Shown piece after piece: positions 51,532 through 60,585 of a DNA stretch of 64,000 nucleotides (position 1 is its first letter; each line of letters opens with the position of its first letter). This stretch comes from Saprospiraceae bacterium. Lineage in GTDB: Bacteria > Bacteroidota > Bacteroidia > Chitinophagales > Saprospiraceae. Made by a program: the position numbers and the translations under genes. Below the pieces are notes generated by a model. The model did no database searches and was not told where the DNA came from. It saw only the letters and a program-made list of their open reading frames with translations. The stretch lies in the NCBI GenBank assembly GCA_020628095.1, contig JAHDFP010000007.1, forward strand, positions 97,550-161,549. Reading direction: 5' to 3'.

Positions 51532-53688
51532 CTAACCCTGCATATACTTTACTGGGCTATCTGTATTAAAGAAGAAAAAAGACCACCTATCCGCTTCTTC
51601 GTCCAGTATCTTAGATGTCGGCTTTCCTGCACCATGACCTGCATCTGTCTCTATACGTAATATGACGGGATTATCTCCCTCATGGCATTCTTGTAGTCGC
51701 GCACCAAACTTAAATGAGTGCGCGGGCACAACTCTATCATCATGATCGGCCGTTGTTATCATAGTCGCTGGATATGATACGCCTTCCTTAAGATTATGTA
51801 ATGGAGAGTAGGATAAGAGATTTTCGAAATGTTCTGATTCGTCACTGGACCCATACTCAGGAACCCATCCCCACCCTACTGTAAACTTGTGATATCTCAA
51901 CATATCCATTACGCCAACTGCTGGGAATGTCGCTGCAAAAAGATCTGGTCGCTGCGTCATGCATGCTCCTACTAATAATCCGCCATTAGAGCCGCCAGCA
52001 ATGGCTAATTTTTCCTTAGATGTATATCCCTCTGATATCAAATACTCTCCTGCCGCGATAAAGTCATCGAATACATTTTGCTTATTGAGCAACATGCCGG
52101 CCTTATGCCACTCTTCTCCATATTCTCCGCCACCTCTGAGATTAGGCATCGCGAATACCCCACCATTTTCCAATAATATAATTCTAGATGTACTGAAATA
52201 TGGCGTCAGACTTACATTGAACCCACCATAGGCATAAAGGTATGTAGGATTGTTTCCATCTAACTCTAGTCCCTTTTTGTGCACAATGAACATAGGCACC
52301 TTAGTGCCGTCCTTACTTGTATAAAAGACTTGCTTCTCTACGAAATCTTCTGGAGTAAACTTAAGCTCAGAGGCGAAGAAAGGTGTAGACTCATCCTTAG
52401 CTACATCGTATTTGTAAATAGAATTAGGAATAGTGAAAGAAGAAAAACTATAGAAAAAATGATCGTCATCTTTTTCTCCTCCAAAACCGCCAGCACTACC
52501 TAGACCAGGTAACTTGACTTCTGTCATATTCTGACCATCATAGTCAACGCGATAAATTCTTGTCGTCGCATCTTTCAGATAATTAGCCCATAGCTTACCA
52601 GCACCTGTAGATACACCATTCAATAAGTTTTCAGACTCAGGAATGATGTCTACCCAGTTTTCTTTGGCAGGATTATCTAAGTCGATTTTAACTAACCGAT
52701 AATTAGGCGCATCAATGTTAGTCATCACTAAAAAAGCATTGTCACCCACATTATCTATGACATTGCTTTTATTCTTGAATCCGCTAAAAAGATTCTTGAT
52801 AGGACCGTCATTCTTTAGGTCCTTGTAATAAGTCTCGTAACCGTCCGTACCTGAGGCAGCATATAGTACTAAGAAGCTCTTGTCCTCAGTCGGGCCTCCA
52901 TAATGATATATAAGCGGTTCTTTTTTATTACCGAATATGTACTTATCCTGTGACTGATCTTCGCCTAACTTATGATAATAGACCGCGTGATATTCGTTTT
53001 TAGCAGATAACTCGAGACCATCTTCTGGGGCTGGATATCTATTATAATAGAAGCCACCATCATACCATGATGCCCCTGAGAATTTTACCCATTTGAGTAC
53101 GTCTGGCAGTTTTCTTTTAGTTGCAACTTCCATGACATGAATCTCTTGCCAGTCACTACCACCTTCGCTTTTTGCGTAGGCTACATACTTGTCATCTTCA
53201 GAAAAACCAATAATTCTAGCCGAAACCGTACCATCCTCAGACATTGCATTAGGATCAAGAAAAACCTCTGGTTCTCCGTCTAGTCCTTTTTGGATATAGG
53301 TGACTGACTGATTTTGCAAGCCATCATTTTTATTAAAGAAATAGTACTCGCCGACTTTATATGGAGAGCTTAACTTGACATAATTAAATAGCTCTTCGTA
53401 TCTATCTCTTATCTTATCTCTGTAAGGTATCTGCGAAAGGTAATCAAAGGTCACTTTGTTCTGGTCTTTGACCCATGAGCCGACCTCTGCGGCTGTATCT
53501 ATCTCTAACCATCTGTAAGGATCTTGTACCTCAGTACCATGATAATCATCCACCACCGAAGAATCTTTTCTTGTTTCTGGATATGTCACCTCTATATTCT
53601 CATTACTTACCTTATCCATAATTTCTTGTTTACAAGCAAAAAATGATACTGCTATCACAATTGCGCATACTTTGTATCTGAGACCCAT
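51532..53688 (-). CDS. Prolyl oligopeptidase family serine peptidase (lipoprotein)
   Basis: 718 residues. N-terminal signal ends in FFAC, a lipobox-like site, so it is probably attached to the membrane. N-terminal beta-propeller of S9A type (YPETRKDSSVVDDYHGTEVQDPYRWLE) and C-terminal alpha/beta-hydrolase with the nucleophile Ser567 in AGGSNGGLL, the Asp in TADHDDRVVP and the His in DAGHGAGKP. Cleaves peptides after proline, here outside the cytoplasm. Length is normal for S9A. Confidence 0.93.
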   Translation of the reverse strand: MGLRYKVCAIVIAVSFFACKQEIMDKVSNENIEVTYPETRKDSSVVDDYHGTEVQDPYRWLEIDTAAEVGSWVKDQNKVTFDYLSQIPYRDKIRDRYEELFNYVKLSSPYKVGEYYFFNKNDGLQNQSVTYIQKGLDGEPEVFLDPNAMSEDGTVSARIIGFSEDDKYVAYAKSEGGSDWQEIHVMEVATKRKLPDVLKWVKFSGASWYDGGFYYNRYPAPEDGLELSAKNEYHAVYYHKLGEDQSQDKYIFGNKKEPLIYHYGGPTEDKSFLVLYAASGTDGYETYYKDLKNDGPIKNLFSGFKNKSNVIDNVGDNAFLVMTNIDAPNYRLVKIDLDNPAKENWVDIIPESENLLNGVSTGAGKLWANYLKDATTRIYRVDYDGQNMTEVKLPGLGSAGGFGGEKDDDHFFYSFSSFTIPNSIYKYDVAKDESTPFFASELKFTPEDFVEKQVFYTSKDGTKVPMFIVHKKGLELDGNNPTYLYAYGGFNVSLTPYFSTSRIILLENGGVFAMPNLRGGGEYGEEWHKAGMLLNKQNVFDDFIAAGEYLISEGYTSKEKLAIAGGSNGGLLVGACMTQRPDLFAATFPAVGVMDMLRYHKFTVGWGWVPEYGSSDESEHFENLLSYSPLHNLKEGVSYPATMITTADHDDRVVPAHSFKFGARLQECHEGDNPVILRIETDAGHGAGKPTSKILDEEADRWSFFFFNTDSPVKYMQG

Positions 53689-53792
53689 AGTTTTTTGTTT
53701 TGAGTATTCTAATGACCTGTAAAATAGGGAAATAGAGTTAATTACAATCCATTAGTCGATGAAGTCCAGAAAGGGGTAGACTAATTTTTTAA

Positions 53793-53800
53793 TAAATTTG
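53793..53800 (+). promoter_or_regulatory. -7 element of the gene at 53820
   Basis: TAAATTTG, a full match to TAnnTTTG, 19 bp before the GTG start at 53820. No good -33 element was found. Confidence 0.3.
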
Positions 53801-53819
53801 AAGAACTTATATAAGATCA

Positions 53820-54470
53820 GTGGTTGGAAAATTAATTTGGGCGTTATTTCTTAAGAGTTTACTGGGCGTTTCTTTGCTCTTAGGTTCTAATATACTGTGC
53901 AGTCAAGATGCTCAGATGTTTTGGTATGAGCCAGCTTCTTCTTCCCCGTCAGAAACGAAATCCACGGATAGTGCAGATTGCGTCAGGAAGCCCAATACCG
54001 ATGATGTGGATGGCAGTGTACACATAGTAGAACTAGAAGAGAGGCCTTTATTCGTTCATACTCATCCGGAATACAAAAAATGGAACAAGGATAAGTTCCT
54101 TATGGAATGTTCGGCCAATTTTTATCAGGCTAATGAGACAACCTTCCTTTTATTACATTTCAAAATAAATTCTGAAAATGCCAAGCACGCCTATGGCAAC
54201 CTTAATAAAGGGGCACAGGTCAAGTTGACCTTTGATAATAAAGAACATATATACTTAGAAAATATAGAGCGCGATAGAGGGTCAGCACAGAGATCTAAAA
54301 AGTACACCACCTACAAAGGCATCTTTCCTGTAGACAAAGGAAAAATGAAAGATTTCCAGAAAAACAAACTCGATAAGATGGGCATAGTCTGGGAAGAAGG
54401 ATATCAAGAATATGATGTACAGAATAAAGATATGCTTCTCCATCAAGCTCATTGCATAAAAGAATATTAA
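53820..54470 (+). CDS. Secreted hypothetical protein
   Basis: 216 residues, GTG start. Signal peptide of about 28 residues (LFLKSLLGVSLLLGSNILC), possibly lipidated at the Cys. A Ser/Thr-rich stretch follows (ASSSPSETKSTDSAD), then a domain with FLLLHFKINSENAKHAYGNL and NKGAQVKLTFDNKEHIYLE, beta-sandwich-like. I do not recognise the family. The stop (TAA) shares one base with the miaE start, so they are coupled. Confidence 0.65.
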   Translation: MVGKLIWALFLKSLLGVSLLLGSNILCSQDAQMFWYEPASSSPSETKSTDSADCVRKPNTDDVDGSVHIVELEERPLFVHTHPEYKKWNKDKFLMECSANFYQANETTFLLLHFKINSENAKHAYGNLNKGAQVKLTFDNKEHIYLENIERDRGSAQRSKKYTTYKGIFPVDKGKMKDFQKNKLDKMGIVWEEGYQEYDVQNKDMLLHQAHCIKEY

Positions 54471-55051
54471 TGTTGGGACTTAAACTACCTACTGATCCGA
54501 GATGGGTCAATCTTGCTGAGATGAGTCTGCAAGAGATTCTGACGGATCATGCCTACTGTGAGCAAAAAGCCACCACCACTTGCATATCACTGATACAAAG
54601 TTTTCCCGAGAAGGAAAGATTAGTCAGAGAAGTCGCGCCTGTGGTAGAAGAAGAATGGTCACATTTTCGACTCGTACTCAAAGAACTCGACAAAAGAGGT
54701 CTGAAACTGGGTCGCCAGCGCAAAGATGAGTATGTCAATGCCCTCATGGAATTCCGAAAAGGAGGTGGATCTCGTGAGCAGGCACTTACAGAAAGGCTTT
54801 TGATATCTGCACTTATAGAGGCTAGGTCCTGTGAGAGATTTAGGCTATTGTCTCTGCATATAAGTGATGATAATCTTAAAGAGTTCTATCATGGATTTAT
54901 GGTCTCCGAGGCTGGTCACTATAAGATGTTCATAGAACTAGCCAGACATTACGGCGATGTAGACGCAGTCAACAAAAGATGGCAAGAGTACTTAGATCAC
55001 GAAATTGTCATCATGGAAAATCTCTCGTTACGTGGAGATCGTATGCATTAA
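54470..55051 (+). CDS. miaE: tRNA-(ms2io6A37) hydroxylase MiaE-like
   Basis: 193 residues from the ATG at 54470, which overlaps the previous stop (TAATG). A helical-bundle diiron enzyme: ligands are in EILTDHAYCEQKA, EEEWSHFRLV, LLISALIEARSCERF and FMVSEAGHYKMF (Glu/His pairs of the ferritin-like fold). MiaE hydroxylates the isopentenyl group of ms2i6A37 in tRNA. It is unusual for it to be coupled to a secreted protein, so the shared transcript may be accidental. Convergent with the desaturase gene 30 bp downstream. Confidence 0.85.
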   Translation: MLGLKLPTDPRWVNLAEMSLQEILTDHAYCEQKATTTCISLIQSFPEKERLVREVAPVVEEEWSHFRLVLKELDKRGLKLGRQRKDEYVNALMEFRKGGGSREQALTERLLISALIEARSCERFRLLSLHISDDNLKEFYHGFMVSEAGHYKMFIELARHYGDVDAVNKRWQEYLDHEIVIMENLSLRGDRMH

Positions 55052-55081
55052 GGCAGAGTATTATTACTGTGACTCCCTAGT

Positions 55082-56107
55082 TTAAGCCGTGGCTATAGAT
55101 TCTTTAGTTTGCATTCCTTTGAAGAAATCACTTTCTGATCCCTTAGTGACCTGTAGTCCGCCCTTATCACTCCTGATAATCCTAGAGAATAATGATAACT
55201 CTTTATCAAAAATGAACTTAAGCCATAGTTTGGTCCACGACTCGTGATATACCAATGTATTATAATACTCAGGCGCTATTTCTCTGATCTTAGGTAGATT
55301 ATTCCAAGGGACAAAAGAAAAGTCATGATGCTCATTGTGATAACCTACATTGAATGCTAACTTATTCAGAGGGCCATAGTAGCTGTAAGTCTCTTGTGGC
55401 GGTGCAACAAGAAAATGTTCCTGTATCCATCTTGCACCCAACGGGTGAAAGCCAACAGAGAAAAAGAACGACGCCATAAGGTATAAGAATGCCATCGGTC
55501 CAAAGAAGTAAATCAATGCTATATCAAATGCGACTAGAGTCAATAGATTGACCCACACCCAACTACTTTGGAACTGTATCGCCTTAAGACGGGGTGGTCT
55601 GAGTGCCTGAAAAACAGGGAAGAACATGAGCCAAAAAGACTTACCAATAAAATTAGAACCAATAAGCTTGGCCTCCCAGTAACTTGCTATATCCGCATCT
55701 ATATCATGATGTCCCTGAAAAGCATGATGCTTGAGGTGATATTTTCTGAACGACACAGAACTCGGAAATCCATTAGGCAGATCACACATTATTCCACACC
55801 AAAGGTTAGCTATCCTGCTTTTGAATACCATGTTATGAGTGAACTCGTGGATAAGTACGAATAAACCATGATTAGCAAAAGCACCAATGCAAAAAGCTGA
55901 CAATACGATCATCCACCAAGGCTGATCCTTGAGAAATATCGCCATTCCTATCTGGAATACAACAATCACCAAAGCATACCAAAAAGTATTAGGATTTCTA
56001 CCCATTAGCTTCTTGATCTCTGGATATTTCTTGATGATATCCTTCGTTCTTTGGATGTGCGGTTCTTCTGATGATGACTGCAAAAAATCTGCTACTGGTT
56101 TAGACAT
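55082..56107 (-). CDS. Sphingolipid delta-4-desaturase (DEGS1)-like membrane desaturase
   Basis: 341 residues with about four to six membrane helices and the three His boxes of the membrane desaturase family: HEFTH (87-91), HLKHH (124-128) and HNEHH (257-261). The N-terminus resembles the Lipid_DES segment of dihydroceramide desaturases (DIIKKYPEIKKLMGRNPN, ~23-40), and the third box environment ETYSYYGPLNKLAFNVGYHN (239-258) is very close to animal DEGS1. By analogy it would put the 4,5 double bond into a sphingoid base. Bacteroidota make sphingolipids, so the substrate is plausible, but the synthesis genes are not in this window. Not an ordinary acyl-CoA or phospholipid desaturase by motif. 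Confidence 0.85.
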   Translation of the reverse strand: MSKPVADFLQSSSEEPHIQRTKDIIKKYPEIKKLMGRNPNTFWYALVIVVFQIGMAIFLKDQPWWMIVLSAFCIGAFANHGLFVLIHEFTHNMVFKSRIANLWCGIMCDLPNGFPSSVSFRKYHLKHHAFQGHHDIDADIASYWEAKLIGSNFIGKSFWLMFFPVFQALRPPRLKAIQFQSSWVWVNLLTLVAFDIALIYFFGPMAFLYLMASFFFSVGFHPLGARWIQEHFLVAPPQETYSYYGPLNKLAFNVGYHNEHHDFSFVPWNNLPKIREIAPEYYNTLVYHESWTKLWLKFIFDKELSLFSRIIRSDKGGLQVTKGSESDFFKGMQTKESIATA

Positions 56108-56126
56108 ATTACCGTGAATTATACGT

Positions 56127-56134
56127 CAAAACTA
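56127..56134 (-). promoter_or_regulatory. -7 element of the desaturase gene
   Basis: On the minus strand TAGTTTTG, a full match to TAnnTTTG, 20 bp before the ATG at 56107. No TTTG lies 19 bp further up. Confidence 0.4.
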
Positions 56135-56270
56135 AGGAATCTTAATTTTCTTATTTGCATCTCTACGAGGAGATATTCATATTTATACATAGTGGAAAAA
56201 AATAGTCGCCCATTTGCTATTTTATCCATTACAACATACCCTCTCAAAAGTTCCAACTTTCTCTTAAACC

Positions 56271-56301
56271 TTTGTAATACAGTTATTTACACATATATTT
56301 G
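56271..56301 (+). promoter_or_regulatory. Consensus Bacteroidota promoter of the response regulator gene
   Basis: TTTG at 56271-56274, exactly 19 bp, then TATATTTG at 56294-56301: full match to both elements. The leader is about 75 nt. Confidence 0.7.
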
Positions 56302-56381
56302 AGTATATTATAATATGAAAGGTACATGGTCGAAGTCATTTTCGGAATTATAATTGCTCGCTCAAACTGAGAATAGTAACT

Positions 56382-57344
56382 ATGGACTTACCTAAAATCT
56401 TAATTATAGACGACAGAGAGTTTGACAGAATACTCTATAAGGAGTATCTGGGTGATGCTAACTACAACTTTTCGGAATTAGAAGATGGAGAGACGGTACT
56501 CGCACAACTCAATGTAGAAAAGCCCGATCTCATACTTCTGGATTGGCAGATGCCAAAGATGGGTGGTCTGGATACTCTTAAAACCTTAAAGAAGAACAAG
56601 GCCTTTAGCAATATCCCCATTATCATAATAACTGGTCTTCAGGACGAAAATGTCTTAGAAGAGGCCTTTGATTACGGTAGTGTAGATTTTCTTAATAAGC
56701 CTGTGAGCAGAATAGAACTAACCGCCAGAGTCCATAATGCCATAGAGCTCAGTGAGGCTACGCAGACCTTGGTTACACAGAAAAGAGAACTCTTGGAGCT
56801 CAATCAGATTATCAATAACCAAAAAGCGGAACTGGAAAAATCGTTGGCGCTCAAAAGTCAATTGCTGGACCTCAACGAAGTCGAGCATGATAAGAATATA
56901 AAAGAAGTCAAAAGAAAGCTAATGACTCTAGAGATAGATAACTCCAAAGTGGGTAATCACCTCAAAGCTATCAAGGCACAAATAGAAGAATGTTATATCC
57001 AGCTAAGAAAAGAAAACGCTGAAAGTCTTGTTCTCAGAAAATTAAGACAACTGGAGCGCAACATATCCAATATATCCATGGATGACCAATCATGGAGCGA
57101 GTTCAAAGAAGTATTTGAAAGTATTGATTCTGGCTTTTTTACAAAGCTGACAACACGCAATCCAAAGCTGACATCTCTTGATCTGAAGCATTGTGCCTAT
57201 ATCAAAATGAATCTGGACAATTATGAAGTGGCTAATATCTTCAATGTAGAACTGAAAAGTCTACAAATGACCCGATACAGGCTCAAAAAGAAACTGAACC
57301 TTACGCAAGAACAAAATCTAAGGGAGTTTATTCTTACTATATAG
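56382..57344 (+). CDS. Response regulator with coiled coil and C-terminal HTH-like domain
   Basis: 320 residues. Receiver domain (acidic pair at 10-11, phospho-acceptor Asp54 in LILLDWQMPKM, KPVS near 107), then a long coiled coil (~125-205), then a ~100-residue C-terminal LuxR-like helix-turn-helix region seen in Bacteroidota regulators (LTSLDLKHCAYIKMNLDNYE, VELKSLQMTRYRLKKKL). Convergent with, and overlapping by 8 bp, the gene of the large histidine kinase, which is therefore a candidate partner, though each has its own promoter. Confidence 0.85.
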   Translation: MDLPKILIIDDREFDRILYKEYLGDANYNFSELEDGETVLAQLNVEKPDLILLDWQMPKMGGLDTLKTLKKNKAFSNIPIIIITGLQDENVLEEAFDYGSVDFLNKPVSRIELTARVHNAIELSEATQTLVTQKRELLELNQIINNQKAELEKSLALKSQLLDLNEVEHDKNIKEVKRKLMTLEIDNSKVGNHLKAIKAQIEECYIQLRKENAESLVLRKLRQLERNISNISMDDQSWSEFKEVFESIDSGFFTKLTTRNPKLTSLDLKHCAYIKMNLDNYEVANIFNVELKSLQMTRYRLKKKLNLTQEQNLREFILTI

Positions 57345-60300
57345 TCAGTTGTATATCATCTTTGATAGTAAAATAGAATTGACTTCCATTTCCTATTTCT
57401 GATTCTACCCATATCTGTCCCTGATGCTGGTCTATGACCTTTTTACATATAGATAGACCGATCCCTGTTCCCTGATACTTATTTTCGCTATGCAACTTTT
57501 TGAACATCAGGAATATCTTATCGAGATACTCTTCCTCTATACCGATACCGTTATCCACTACTTTGAACTTATGGTAACCTGATTTGTCCTTTTCGTAATA
57601 AATATCTATGGCGGGATTAACATCTGGCGCGGTGAACTTCATTCCATTAGTAATCAGATTTTGGAACACCTGCCTAATCCTCATGAAGTCCGCATTGATA
57701 TAATCAGGAATGTTGTGCAAATTAACCACTCCATTCTTCTCCTTGATAGATGAACTCAGTTCTGTAATCAAGCCCTTAAACATCTTGTGCATGTCAAGCT
57801 TCTCTATCTCTACCTCCTTGGTATTGATCCTAGAATAGGCCAAAAGATCATCTATCAGCACCTGCATATTAGTAGATGCCTCCAGGACGATGTCTACAAA
57901 CCTTAGATTCTTTTCGTCTATCTGAGTATGTATATTCTTTCGCAGTAATTGCATAAAGCTAATCACGGACCTAATCGGCGCCTTTAAATCATGCGACGCG
58001 ATATAAGCGAAATTCTCTAGCTGTAGATTGGAGCTAATATATTTCTCGAGTTCCTTATTTTTCTGATTAAGATCCTCTATTTGCCTACGGATAATATCAC
58101 TGGCATTTTTTCTTTGCGTTATATCACGATAATTCCTTACGACATAGGCTTTCTCCTTAATTCTAACTATTATCTGCGAGGTATCCAGATGTAGATCAGA
58201 GCCATCAGGTTTGAGAAGAGTGAACTCTCCGAGGGAGCTCTTATGTTTTAAGAGGTCCACAAAAAGGTCTTTTAGTTTCTGTTTAGATTCTGTACCATCA
58301 GGCTGCAACTCAGGAGATATATCTAAATATTGGTCTACTGTATCAAACAAATTATCCTGATTATGCAATATACGCCTCATCGGCTCATTACGGACCACTA
58401 GACGGCCATCGAGCAATTCGTCATTATTGGTATCATACTCTAAGACATCAATCCCATCAAAAGCATTGCTGACCATGGATTCGTATATGGCTTTCTTCTC
58501 AGACAACTCCTTTTTAGCAAGTTGGCGTTTGGTAACGTCTCTTATTAGTAGGTAAGCCTGTTCTTTTTGTACGAAGGACGGTATAATATTCACGTCTACC
58601 AGAATCTCTTCGTTCTGAGCATCAACGAATACACCTCTGGCTTTTATTAATTCTCCTTTCTCCACCAAGCTCTTGTGCGCTTTTATATTTTCATGCAGGT
58701 TTACACCTGGAAAATAATTAGATTTTTCTGGCACAAAGTCCCATCTTGATCTTTTGGTAATTTCAGCCTCCGTATACTTTAACATTTTGAGGGCAGAGTC
58801 GTTGCACTCCACCACATGCTCTTTATTATAATCATAAAGGACAATAGCCTCTGTCAAATTCTTAAATAATAGCTCATACTTATTCTGGGTAGATATCAAC
58901 TCTTGTCTCGTAAGTACTCGATCCGTGACATCATTGAAGGCTAATAAGTACTCCTTAGGATTGTCCTCTGTGTCTCTTATCAAGGAAGCGATTCCCTCTA
59001 CGTGTATTATACGACCTAACTGATCCCTAACTCTAAAACTATTAAAAACATCTCCACCACCAGATAAGAGTTTGACTATATCACGAGAGAGTTTACTATG
59101 ATCTTCTTTGACAACAAAATCAAAAAGACTCTTGCCTATTATAAAGGATTTCTTAGAGCTTAGTAATTCTGTGGTTCTTGGAGAGACAAAGCTTATCTCA
59201 CCTGTAAAACCAATTCTAGCAATACAGGTAGGTAAGGAATCTATTATGGTCCTGAACATAAATTCACTCTCCTTGATCATGTCCTTATACATGTTGATCT
59301 CGGTGAGGTCACGACTTATTTCCAGACACCCCAATATCTCCTCCTGTTTATTCTTTACTGGTCGATACACATTCTCCACTATCCGCTTAGTGGCTCCATC
59401 GTCTCCGAGATACTTCACTATCTCCCCGTCAAATACCTTATCGAAGTAACTTTCCTTCCATCGTTTTATAGTCTTCTGATCTACTAGATCATGCATGTTG
59501 ACTCCTTCCTTGATGTTGATTCCTAAGCCTTTTTTGAAATCCTTTATCGCTTTTTTATTAGCGAAGATGATCTCCATATCTGGATTGACGGCATATATAC
59601 TCTCGTCTATACTTTCCAGTACAGCATTGAGCGTCGCAGTTCTCTGACTGAGCAGATTTTTATTTTCTACTATCTCCGATACATCATGAGCAAATTCTAA
59701 GATGCCAATAAGATTATTTTCTTTATCATATATAGGTCCATACTCTATATCTAACCTTAGCAGCCCCTTCTTGTCTTGCGCCTCAAAACGCATTACAGGA
59801 ATCTTTTTTCCTTGCTTTATATCTGAGATAATTTTCTTGTAAGTATTCTCAAATTTTTCCTTGCCATAAGTCTCTTCTATCGTATTTCCTTTCTTAAGAG
59901 TTATTCCTAGAATTCTCTTATGACGTAGCCTAGTTTTGTTACTGAAAAACAAAATCTTATGATCCAAAGAAAAACCGATGTAGGCATTATTCGTGACTTT
60001 GAGCACGTGTTTCAAAAAATGCGACTCCTGATCAGAATCGAAAGAGGTACCTAAAATACCTTTTTTAGTACTTGTTTCTTCATCAGTCTTATCCCTATCA
60101 CTTTCTATACGCAATGAGAGGTAATTGGAAAATCTATCAAATAGCGGTATCAGAGATATCGCTATATCTGACCTTATACCACCCTCTTGGTCTATAAGAA
60201 TCAATATCTGGTTACCAGATTCTACGGTAAACACCTTAGGACTTTCATCTATTCTTAGCTCGGCAATAAGCTTGATATAAGCCTTATTGTTCTTCCTCAA

Positions 60301-60585
60301 GGGTCTAAGAGTGGGAGACTTTGACTTAGATGTTATTTGTTGGTGGTAAAATGATATATCAGTCAGATAATCTGGCTGGATAGTATCTCTATAGACGGTT
60401 AGCTCATAAATGTCCTGATGGCAAGACAATAGTAAGGCTTGTTCTACATTGATATGTTCACATAATGTGTCCAAAAACTTTTTGGCCTCTAACCTATAGT
60501 CACCATCATGATAACCATAGGTCTCAAAAAGTTTTAATTTAATCTGTTCTAGTTCTAATTGGGTATCCACATTACTTGCTTTCAT
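57337..60585 (-). CDS. Multi-PAS sensor histidine kinase
   Basis: 1082 residues, no convincing transmembrane helix, so probably cytoplasmic. An N-terminal GAF-like region (~1-165) precedes about five PAS domains (for example KVTNNAYIGFSLDHKILFFS, LESIDESIYAVNPDMEIIFA, IDSLPTCIARIGFTGEISFV, FKNLTEAIVLYDYNKEHVVE), each sensing small molecules or redox. C-terminal HisKA with His865 in ASHDLKAP and HATPase with NLITNGMKF, DNGIGIEEE and GTGIGLSICKK, the bacteriophytochrome-type kinase core. The ligand is unknown. A TTTG-N19-TAAATTTA promoter sits right before the ATG, so the mRNA may be leaderless. Confidence 0.9.
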   Translation of the reverse strand: MKASNVDTQLELEQIKLKLFETYGYHDGDYRLEAKKFLDTLCEHINVEQALLLSCHQDIYELTVYRDTIQPDYLTDISFYHQQITSKSKSPTLRPLRKNNKAYIKLIAELRIDESPKVFTVESGNQILILIDQEGGIRSDIAISLIPLFDRFSNYLSLRIESDRDKTDEETSTKKGILGTSFDSDQESHFLKHVLKVTNNAYIGFSLDHKILFFSNKTRLRHKRILGITLKKGNTIEETYGKEKFENTYKKIISDIKQGKKIPVMRFEAQDKKGLLRLDIEYGPIYDKENNLIGILEFAHDVSEIVENKNLLSQRTATLNAVLESIDESIYAVNPDMEIIFANKKAIKDFKKGLGINIKEGVNMHDLVDQKTIKRWKESYFDKVFDGEIVKYLGDDGATKRIVENVYRPVKNKQEEILGCLEISRDLTEINMYKDMIKESEFMFRTIIDSLPTCIARIGFTGEISFVSPRTTELLSSKKSFIIGKSLFDFVVKEDHSKLSRDIVKLLSGGGDVFNSFRVRDQLGRIIHVEGIASLIRDTEDNPKEYLLAFNDVTDRVLTRQELISTQNKYELLFKNLTEAIVLYDYNKEHVVECNDSALKMLKYTEAEITKRSRWDFVPEKSNYFPGVNLHENIKAHKSLVEKGELIKARGVFVDAQNEEILVDVNIIPSFVQKEQAYLLIRDVTKRQLAKKELSEKKAIYESMVSNAFDGIDVLEYDTNNDELLDGRLVVRNEPMRRILHNQDNLFDTVDQYLDISPELQPDGTESKQKLKDLFVDLLKHKSSLGEFTLLKPDGSDLHLDTSQIIVRIKEKAYVVRNYRDITQRKNASDIIRRQIEDLNQKNKELEKYISSNLQLENFAYIASHDLKAPIRSVISFMQLLRKNIHTQIDEKNLRFVDIVLEASTNMQVLIDDLLAYSRINTKEVEIEKLDMHKMFKGLITELSSSIKEKNGVVNLHNIPDYINADFMRIRQVFQNLITNGMKFTAPDVNPAIDIYYEKDKSGYHKFKVVDNGIGIEEEYLDKIFLMFKKLHSENKYQGTGIGLSICKKVIDQHQGQIWVESEIGNGSQFYFTIKDDIQLTI

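Follow-up and report, generated by a model that had tools for sequence, protein, structure and literature searches.

A dihydroceramide delta-4 desaturase family gene in a Saprospiraceae bacterium, with a predicted role in ceramide desaturation

The analysed stretch of Saprospiraceae DNA (64,000 nucleotides, called the window) carries a gene whose product belongs, over its full length, to the sphingolipid delta-4 desaturase (DES) family. This product is probably a membrane di-iron dihydroceramide desaturase that would add the 4,5 double bond to ceramides which the bacterium is predicted to make itself. Support for this assignment comes from the presence of both DES Pfam domains, the identity to vertebrate DES1, the form of the third His box, purifying selection on the gene, a serine palmitoyltransferase (SPT) locus in the same genome, the lack of a CFAT-like (sulfonolipid synthase-like) match there, and the co-occurrence of DES with SPT. 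The features of the gene are as follows, with coordinates given in the window.

55082..56107, minus strand: DES-family (dihydroceramide delta-4 desaturase-like) gene, an intact open reading frame of 341 amino acids from ATG to TAA
55988..56089, minus strand: N-terminal Lipid_DES domain, residues 7-40 (PF08557, 50.7 bits, cut-off 23)
55835..55849, minus strand: His box 1, HEFTH, residues 87-91, with H87 and H91 unchanged across 43 aligned bacterial, vertebrate and plant DES rows
55724..55738, minus strand: His box 2, HLKHH, residues 124-128, with D or E instead of K in vertebrate and plant rows
55325..55339, minus strand: His box 3, HNEHH, residues 257-261, in the DES1-type form YHNEHHDF

A preliminary description of this DNA had placed the three His boxes at exactly these residues, and the protein indeed carries HxxxH, HxxHH and HxxHH boxes starting at positions 87, 124 and 257. 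The Lipid_DES-like N-terminus proposed there is borne out by the PF08557 match, and the segment YYGPLN...GYHNEHHDF is present around the third box as part of the longer YSYYGPLN...VGYHNEHHDF. The FA_desaturase domain (PF00487) covers residues 63-286 with 99.6 bits (Pfam cut-off 29.7). With scores this high, chance resemblance is not a concern. Comparison with four Saprospiraceae orthologues yields pN values of 0.13-0.16 and pS values of 0.86-0.88, and this large excess of pS over pN indicates that the gene is under purifying selection. The DES gene stands singly between a convergent neighbour at 54452-55051 (+) and a divergent neighbour at 56382-57344 (+), and an Rfam scan of positions 53000-58000 around it returned nothing. 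The adjoining gene at 56382-57344 (+) encodes what appears by eye to be a 320-amino-acid response-regulator-like protein. Convergent with it lies a gene for a 1082-amino-acid protein that is histidine-kinase-like by eye (57337-60585) and has no known tie to DES.

An AlphaFold model of the protein (pLDDT 83, pTM 0.82) was used for a fold search, which gave four confident PDB matches with TM values of 0.5-0.6 by query length and rmsd values of 8-13. These comprise two chloroplast FtsHi-complex subunits, which we take to be desaturase-like, and two AlkB entries; the two matches at E<=0.001 have TM values of 0.55-0.6 and rmsd values above 12. The modelled fold therefore gives weak backing to the DES assignment. 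A sequence search of the PDB with the same protein gave no match.

The preliminary description had called the protein a homologue of the animal dihydroceramide delta-4-desaturase, alike over its whole length rather than at the His boxes only. Both points hold: the cut-offs of both DES Pfam domains are passed, and the protein aligns over its full length with a database vertebrate DES1 cluster (P0121) at 39% identity (314 amino acids, 4 gap positions). Identity to a fish DES2 (P0177) is 37% over 321 positions, and that to ten plant DES rows is 40-44%. Across 43 bacterial, vertebrate and plant DES rows, 54 columns are invariant. Like vertebrate DES1 (DEGS1), the window protein combines Lipid_DES and FA_desaturase domains, three His boxes and the sequence HNEHHDF. 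However, it does not have the MG start seen in all 24 vertebrate DES1 rows, it falls in a separate clade, and its second box is HLKHH rather than H(M/L)DHH, with K at a position occupied by D or E in both vertebrate and plant rows. Plant DES proteins (P0241 and relatives) share the Pfam domains of the window protein but likewise form a clade apart. Its bacterial homologues that JGI labels 'sphingolipid delta-4 desaturase' (P0019, P0043, P0064, P0105, P0111 and P0116; six among the 120 homologues listed) belong to the same family, at 65-81% identity, with no substantial difference. The DES sequence family in bacteria is therefore no novelty, since public annotation already shows the homology.

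The preliminary description had named a search for sphingolipid genes in the genome as a check on its reading, and this search recovered an SPT gene above the curated cut-off in a gene run resembling an inositol-phosphoceramide locus. On contig C26 of the same genome, nine collinear genes form one run on the minus strand (L100:9665-17474), listed here by family or predicted product.

C26 run, minus strand: CDP-alcohol phosphatidyltransferase; best family PIPSynBT1523 (NF052561), 279 bits, below the cut-off of 350
C26 run, minus strand: DUF4833 gene
C26 run, minus strand: PAP2 protein; best family phosphoinositol dihydroceramide synthase (NF052609), 259 bits, below the cut-off of 480
C26 run, minus strand: SPT (NF047600, 689 bits, cut-off 640; PDB 3a2b)
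C26 run, minus strand: GNAT acyltransferase, directly beside SPT
C26 run, minus strand: NAD epimerase-type reductase, directly beside SPT
C26 run, minus strand: myo-inositol-phosphate synthase (MIPS)
C26 run, minus strand: PgpA (PgpA-like phosphatase)
C26 run, minus strand: GtrA

The nearest PDB chain to the SPT protein is 3a2b, a serine palmitoyltransferase, at 529 bits. Relatives of the GNAT gene lie within about 4 kb of SPT-type genes in 19 of 20 fetched loci, and relatives of the epimerase gene in 18 of 20. Judging from their position, the two C26 genes may play the parts of ceramide acyltransferase and reductase. For Caulobacter, two papers name the acyltransferase bCerS (or CerS) and the reductase CerR as products of further ceramide genes (PMC11087976, PMC11324152), and CerR is periplasmic there (PMC11087976). 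A periplasmic reductase would be a difficulty for the proposed role, because a desaturase supplied from the cytoplasm should need dihydroceramide at the inner side of the membrane. The C26 epimerase starts directly at the nucleotide-binding motif with no signal peptide obvious by eye, as might be expected of a reductase located in the cytoplasm.

The C26 run also resembles BT_1522-1526 of Bacteroides thetaiotaomicron, which passages of two papers describe as a PI-dihydroceramide (inositol phosphoceramide) synthase, a PI or PIP synthase, a GtrA-type protein, a PgpA-like phosphatase and MIPS (PMC9246714, PMC8791184). As far as those passages describe the B. thetaiotaomicron genes, the likeness extends to MIPS, PIPS-like, PgpA, GtrA and PAP2 synthase-like genes, and the C26 run differs in also containing SPT, the GNAT acyltransferase and the epimerase. 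The word 'desatur(ase)' is absent from the main texts of PMC9246714 and PMC8791184, and the base given in one figure legend of PMC8791184, d17:0, is saturated. Given its gene content, the C26 cluster is predicted to build inositol sphingolipids. Genomic linkage of DES to lipid genes was considered and is not supported: neighbour clustering in 80 loci plus the window, and a BLAST comparison of 109 loci with the C26 proteins, placed DES next to lipid genes neither in the window nor in the 109 loci, apart from three weak paralogue matches (one epimerase and two flippase-like).

From these genes a pathway can be proposed, in which we infer the reaction order, the substrate, the double bond and the inositol head group. 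Serine and an acyl chain would be joined by the SPT of C26, after which N-acylation by the GNAT acyltransferase and reduction by the epimerase-type reductase would yield dihydroceramide. The window DES would then desaturate C4-C5, and the PAP2-type synthase would attach phosphoinositol, supplied by the inositol-phosphate synthase, the phosphatidylinositol-phosphate synthase and the PgpA-like phosphatase of the run. The pathway would end in an inositol phosphoceramide whose base is of the sphingosine type. Eukaryotic DES takes electrons from cytochrome b5. The cytochrome b5 domain PF00173 has no match in this genome, so the bacterial enzyme would need another electron donor.

Co-occurrence of DES with SPT was assessed in 73 genomes of the same class, where SPT was counted by the curated NF047600 cut-off (640), a criterion applied to this class only. 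DES occurs in 10 of these genomes, SPT above the cut-off in 11, and both in 7, such that SPT is present in 7/10 genomes with DES versus 4/63 without it (Fisher p 2e-5). The association gives p 0.003 when counted by genus (42 genera), which handles kinship up to the genus level only. Neither gene is present in the other members of the same family that were sampled (0/5 genomes). Among the 23 nearest DES-bearing genomes (L001-L023), a protein search of these drafts found an SPT at least 76% identical to that on C26 in 19 and a 47% relative in one, and found no SPT in three. In all, this search covered 33 draft genomes with DES (L080 left out; G360 shares the coordinates of G150) and found SPT of at least 59% identity in 24, a 46-47% relative in three and none in six. 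The SPT of one cultured relative with both genes, Flavisolibacter longurius BT320 (L073), is 59% identical to that on C26. Phylum-wide presence of SPT was discarded as a criterion, since paralogues bring the number of genomes with an NF047600 match at E<=1e-3 to 295 of 296. In the 20 DES-bearing genomes of other classes the best NF047600 match scores about 480-526 bits, and one such SPT-like gene compared with the PDB is nearest to the serine palmitoyltransferase 3a2b (419 bits). Most genomes of those classes have an SPT-like gene, and they are therefore uninformative on co-occurrence. At the loci concerned (L154-L160 and L162-L171), the SPT-like gene scores about 480-526 bits, below the cut-off, and is common in those classes; relatives of the GNAT and epimerase genes lie close to it in 16 of 17 fetched loci.

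Several other activities can be considered for the window protein. One is hydroxylation at C4 to give phytoceramide, as in DES2, by an enzyme of the same fold acting on the same substrate. Vertebrate DES2, recorded as a desaturase/C4-monooxygenase, is homologous to the window protein (37%), and JGI names P0094, P0100 and P0109 '4-desaturase/C4-monooxygenase' among the 120 homologues listed. However, all 22 hand-picked DES2 rows carry HD..HN and, in the third box, H(M/V)EHHDF, in which M or V replaces N, whereas the window protein has HE..HN and HNEHHDF. All 109 other bacterial copies share HNEHHDF, as do 23 of the 24 vertebrate DES1 rows picked by hand (P0168 has M). By sequence, the His-box motifs of the window protein are of the DES1 (desaturase) type, and the third-box residue (N versus M/V) may set the reaction outcome. 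We consider the C4-hydroxylase activity unlikely. It is very improbable that the likeness to DES is superficial and the protein an ordinary desaturase of acyl lipids or acyl carriers. The FA_desaturase superfamily is broad and has a second member in this genome, but the window protein carries a Lipid_DES domain above the cut-off and gives no meaningful alignment with that only other FA_desaturase, and DES co-occurs with SPT. Against a profile built from 110 bacterial DES sequences, no open reading frame exceeds 48 bits in 31 non-DES FA_desaturase loci, of which 30 were returned by a search of 40 genomes of the class (many more matches exist) and one is the genome's own second desaturase. In a rooted tree, for which 5 of the 31 candidate loci passed a motif filter as outgroup, the branch parting DES from other desaturases has a support of 76. 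These five rows are very distant (branches up to length 10), which makes this branch weak; the separation therefore rests on the profile scores, and relationships within DES were read from an unrooted tree. Placement against ordinary desaturases, a check that the preliminary description had suggested, thus sets the window protein apart from the sampled ones in both tree and profile.

The natural substrate might instead be a sulfonolipid base of the capnine type, with sphingolipids secondary. A CFAT-like gene is present in 69 of the 73 class genomes, including all three of the ten DES-bearing class genomes that have no SPT above the cut-off. The L209 gene has its strongest PDB match in chain 28eh, a Cysteate-C-fatty acyltransferase (560 bits). 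With L206 and L210, 28eh ranks second (543 and 525 bits) behind 7u7h (567 and 549 bits), an entry titled '7-keto-8-aminopelargonate synthetase-like enzyme'; from these matches the three genes are read as CFAT-like. Against this substrate, the window's genome yields no CFAT-like match at E<=1e-100, and an SPT query on it matches only SPT and glycine C-acetyltransferase, such that the SPT product is the sole long-chain base of this kind with a synthase found there. In addition, CFAT does not go with DES, being present in 9/10 class genomes with it and in 60/63 without it. A sulfonolipid base is thus disfavoured for the window's genome, where we judge it quite unlikely, and possible for genomes with CFAT; in six of the seven class genomes with both DES and SPT, CFAT is also present and the DES substrate is not distinguishable. 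The four class genomes without CFAT, the window's genome included, all have SPT above the cut-off, as if sphingolipids replace sulfonolipids in them. That the window gene was recently acquired from a eukaryote is scarcely credible. The enzyme is a eukaryotic hallmark found in a bacterium, with the identities to vertebrate (39%) and plant (40-44%) proteins given above. However, the genes neighbouring DES are common to other Saprospiraceae, homologues are spread over records from Saprospiraceae, Ignavibacteria, KSB1, Calditrichota, Chitinophagaceae and Sphingobacteriaceae, and the window copy lies among Saprospiraceae within a 46-row bacterial clade that is split at 100/99 from the eukaryotes and three bacterial rows.

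This split was obtained from a careful tree of 67 rows, prepared by dropping 15 near-duplicates from the 82 DES rows of a quick tree in which 57 of the 109 bacterial sequences were used. The careful tree is unrooted and has vertebrates and flowering plants as its only eukaryotes, without invertebrates, fungi and protists; an ancient transfer of DES in either direction would be compatible with it. Records in the 46-row clade are titled Bacteroidota, Ignavibacteriota, KSB1 and Calditrichota, and on the other side lie vertebrates, flowering plants (nine rows each, joining at 95/82) and the bacterial rows L125-L127 of group f23. A fourth f23 copy, L128, falls on the eukaryotic side in the quick tree. 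The f23 bacteria whose DES groups with vertebrates and plants, members of the phylum but of another family than the window's bacterium, are thus L125 (G191), L126 (G089), L127 (G262) and L128 (G187), and contamination is unlikely for L125 since it lies on a 3.75-Mb contig; other f23 genomes (L145, L146, L150 and L151) hold DES copies outside the eukaryote-like group. The preliminary description had held that the gene bears on the origin of eukaryotic DEGS. This is fair for the family, but the window gene has no special part in it, as its clade differs from that of the bacteria grouping with eukaryotes. In the protein database, 7018 homologues match the window protein at E<=1e-3, and relatives are encoded in at least 501 contig stretches from prokaryote genomes. 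Lipid_DES occurs in 30 of 296 genomes of the phylum, and two scans of viral contigs found no DES relatives.

Taken as a dihydroceramide desaturase, the window gene is a new member of the DES family whose bacterial role is well-supported as a prediction, and the bacterium likely makes 4,5-unsaturated ceramides, a kind described as missing from its phylum. According to PMC9045371, bacterial sphingolipids have a fully saturated sphingoid base, and it is the 4,5 double bond that distinguishes the ceramides of eukaryotes from those of Bacteroidetes, which are saturated dihydroceramides. One review mentions an earlier account of branched 'sphingosine bases' from B. thetaiotaomicron (PMC10626005), which indicates that usage of this term is not uniform. 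Among the open-licence papers listed by full-text searches, no title or displayed abstract reports a bacterial dihydroceramide desaturase. If DES works here as proposed, environmental Bacteroidota make true ceramides, which would bear on the origin of a eukaryotic membrane hallmark. There would also be consequences for lipid source assignment, in which a 4,5-unsaturated base tends to be taken as eukaryotic. A broader proposal is possible but doubtful, namely that bacteria of this phylum run a complete and widespread eukaryotic-type ceramide pathway to 4,5-unsaturated inositol phosphoceramides, and that eukaryotic DES came from a bacterial lineage with G191, G089, G262 and G187 as surviving relatives.

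Further candidate lipid genes are present in the same genome. The second FA_desaturase lies on C26 (L099:8233-10197; also L097), about 24 kb from SPT, and beside it is an SDR gene that matches 3-ketodihydrosphingosine reductase below the cut-off (159 of 400 bits). Seven matches to FA_hydroxylase (PF04116), two of them apparently in one frame, may represent ceramide or sterol-type hydroxylases.
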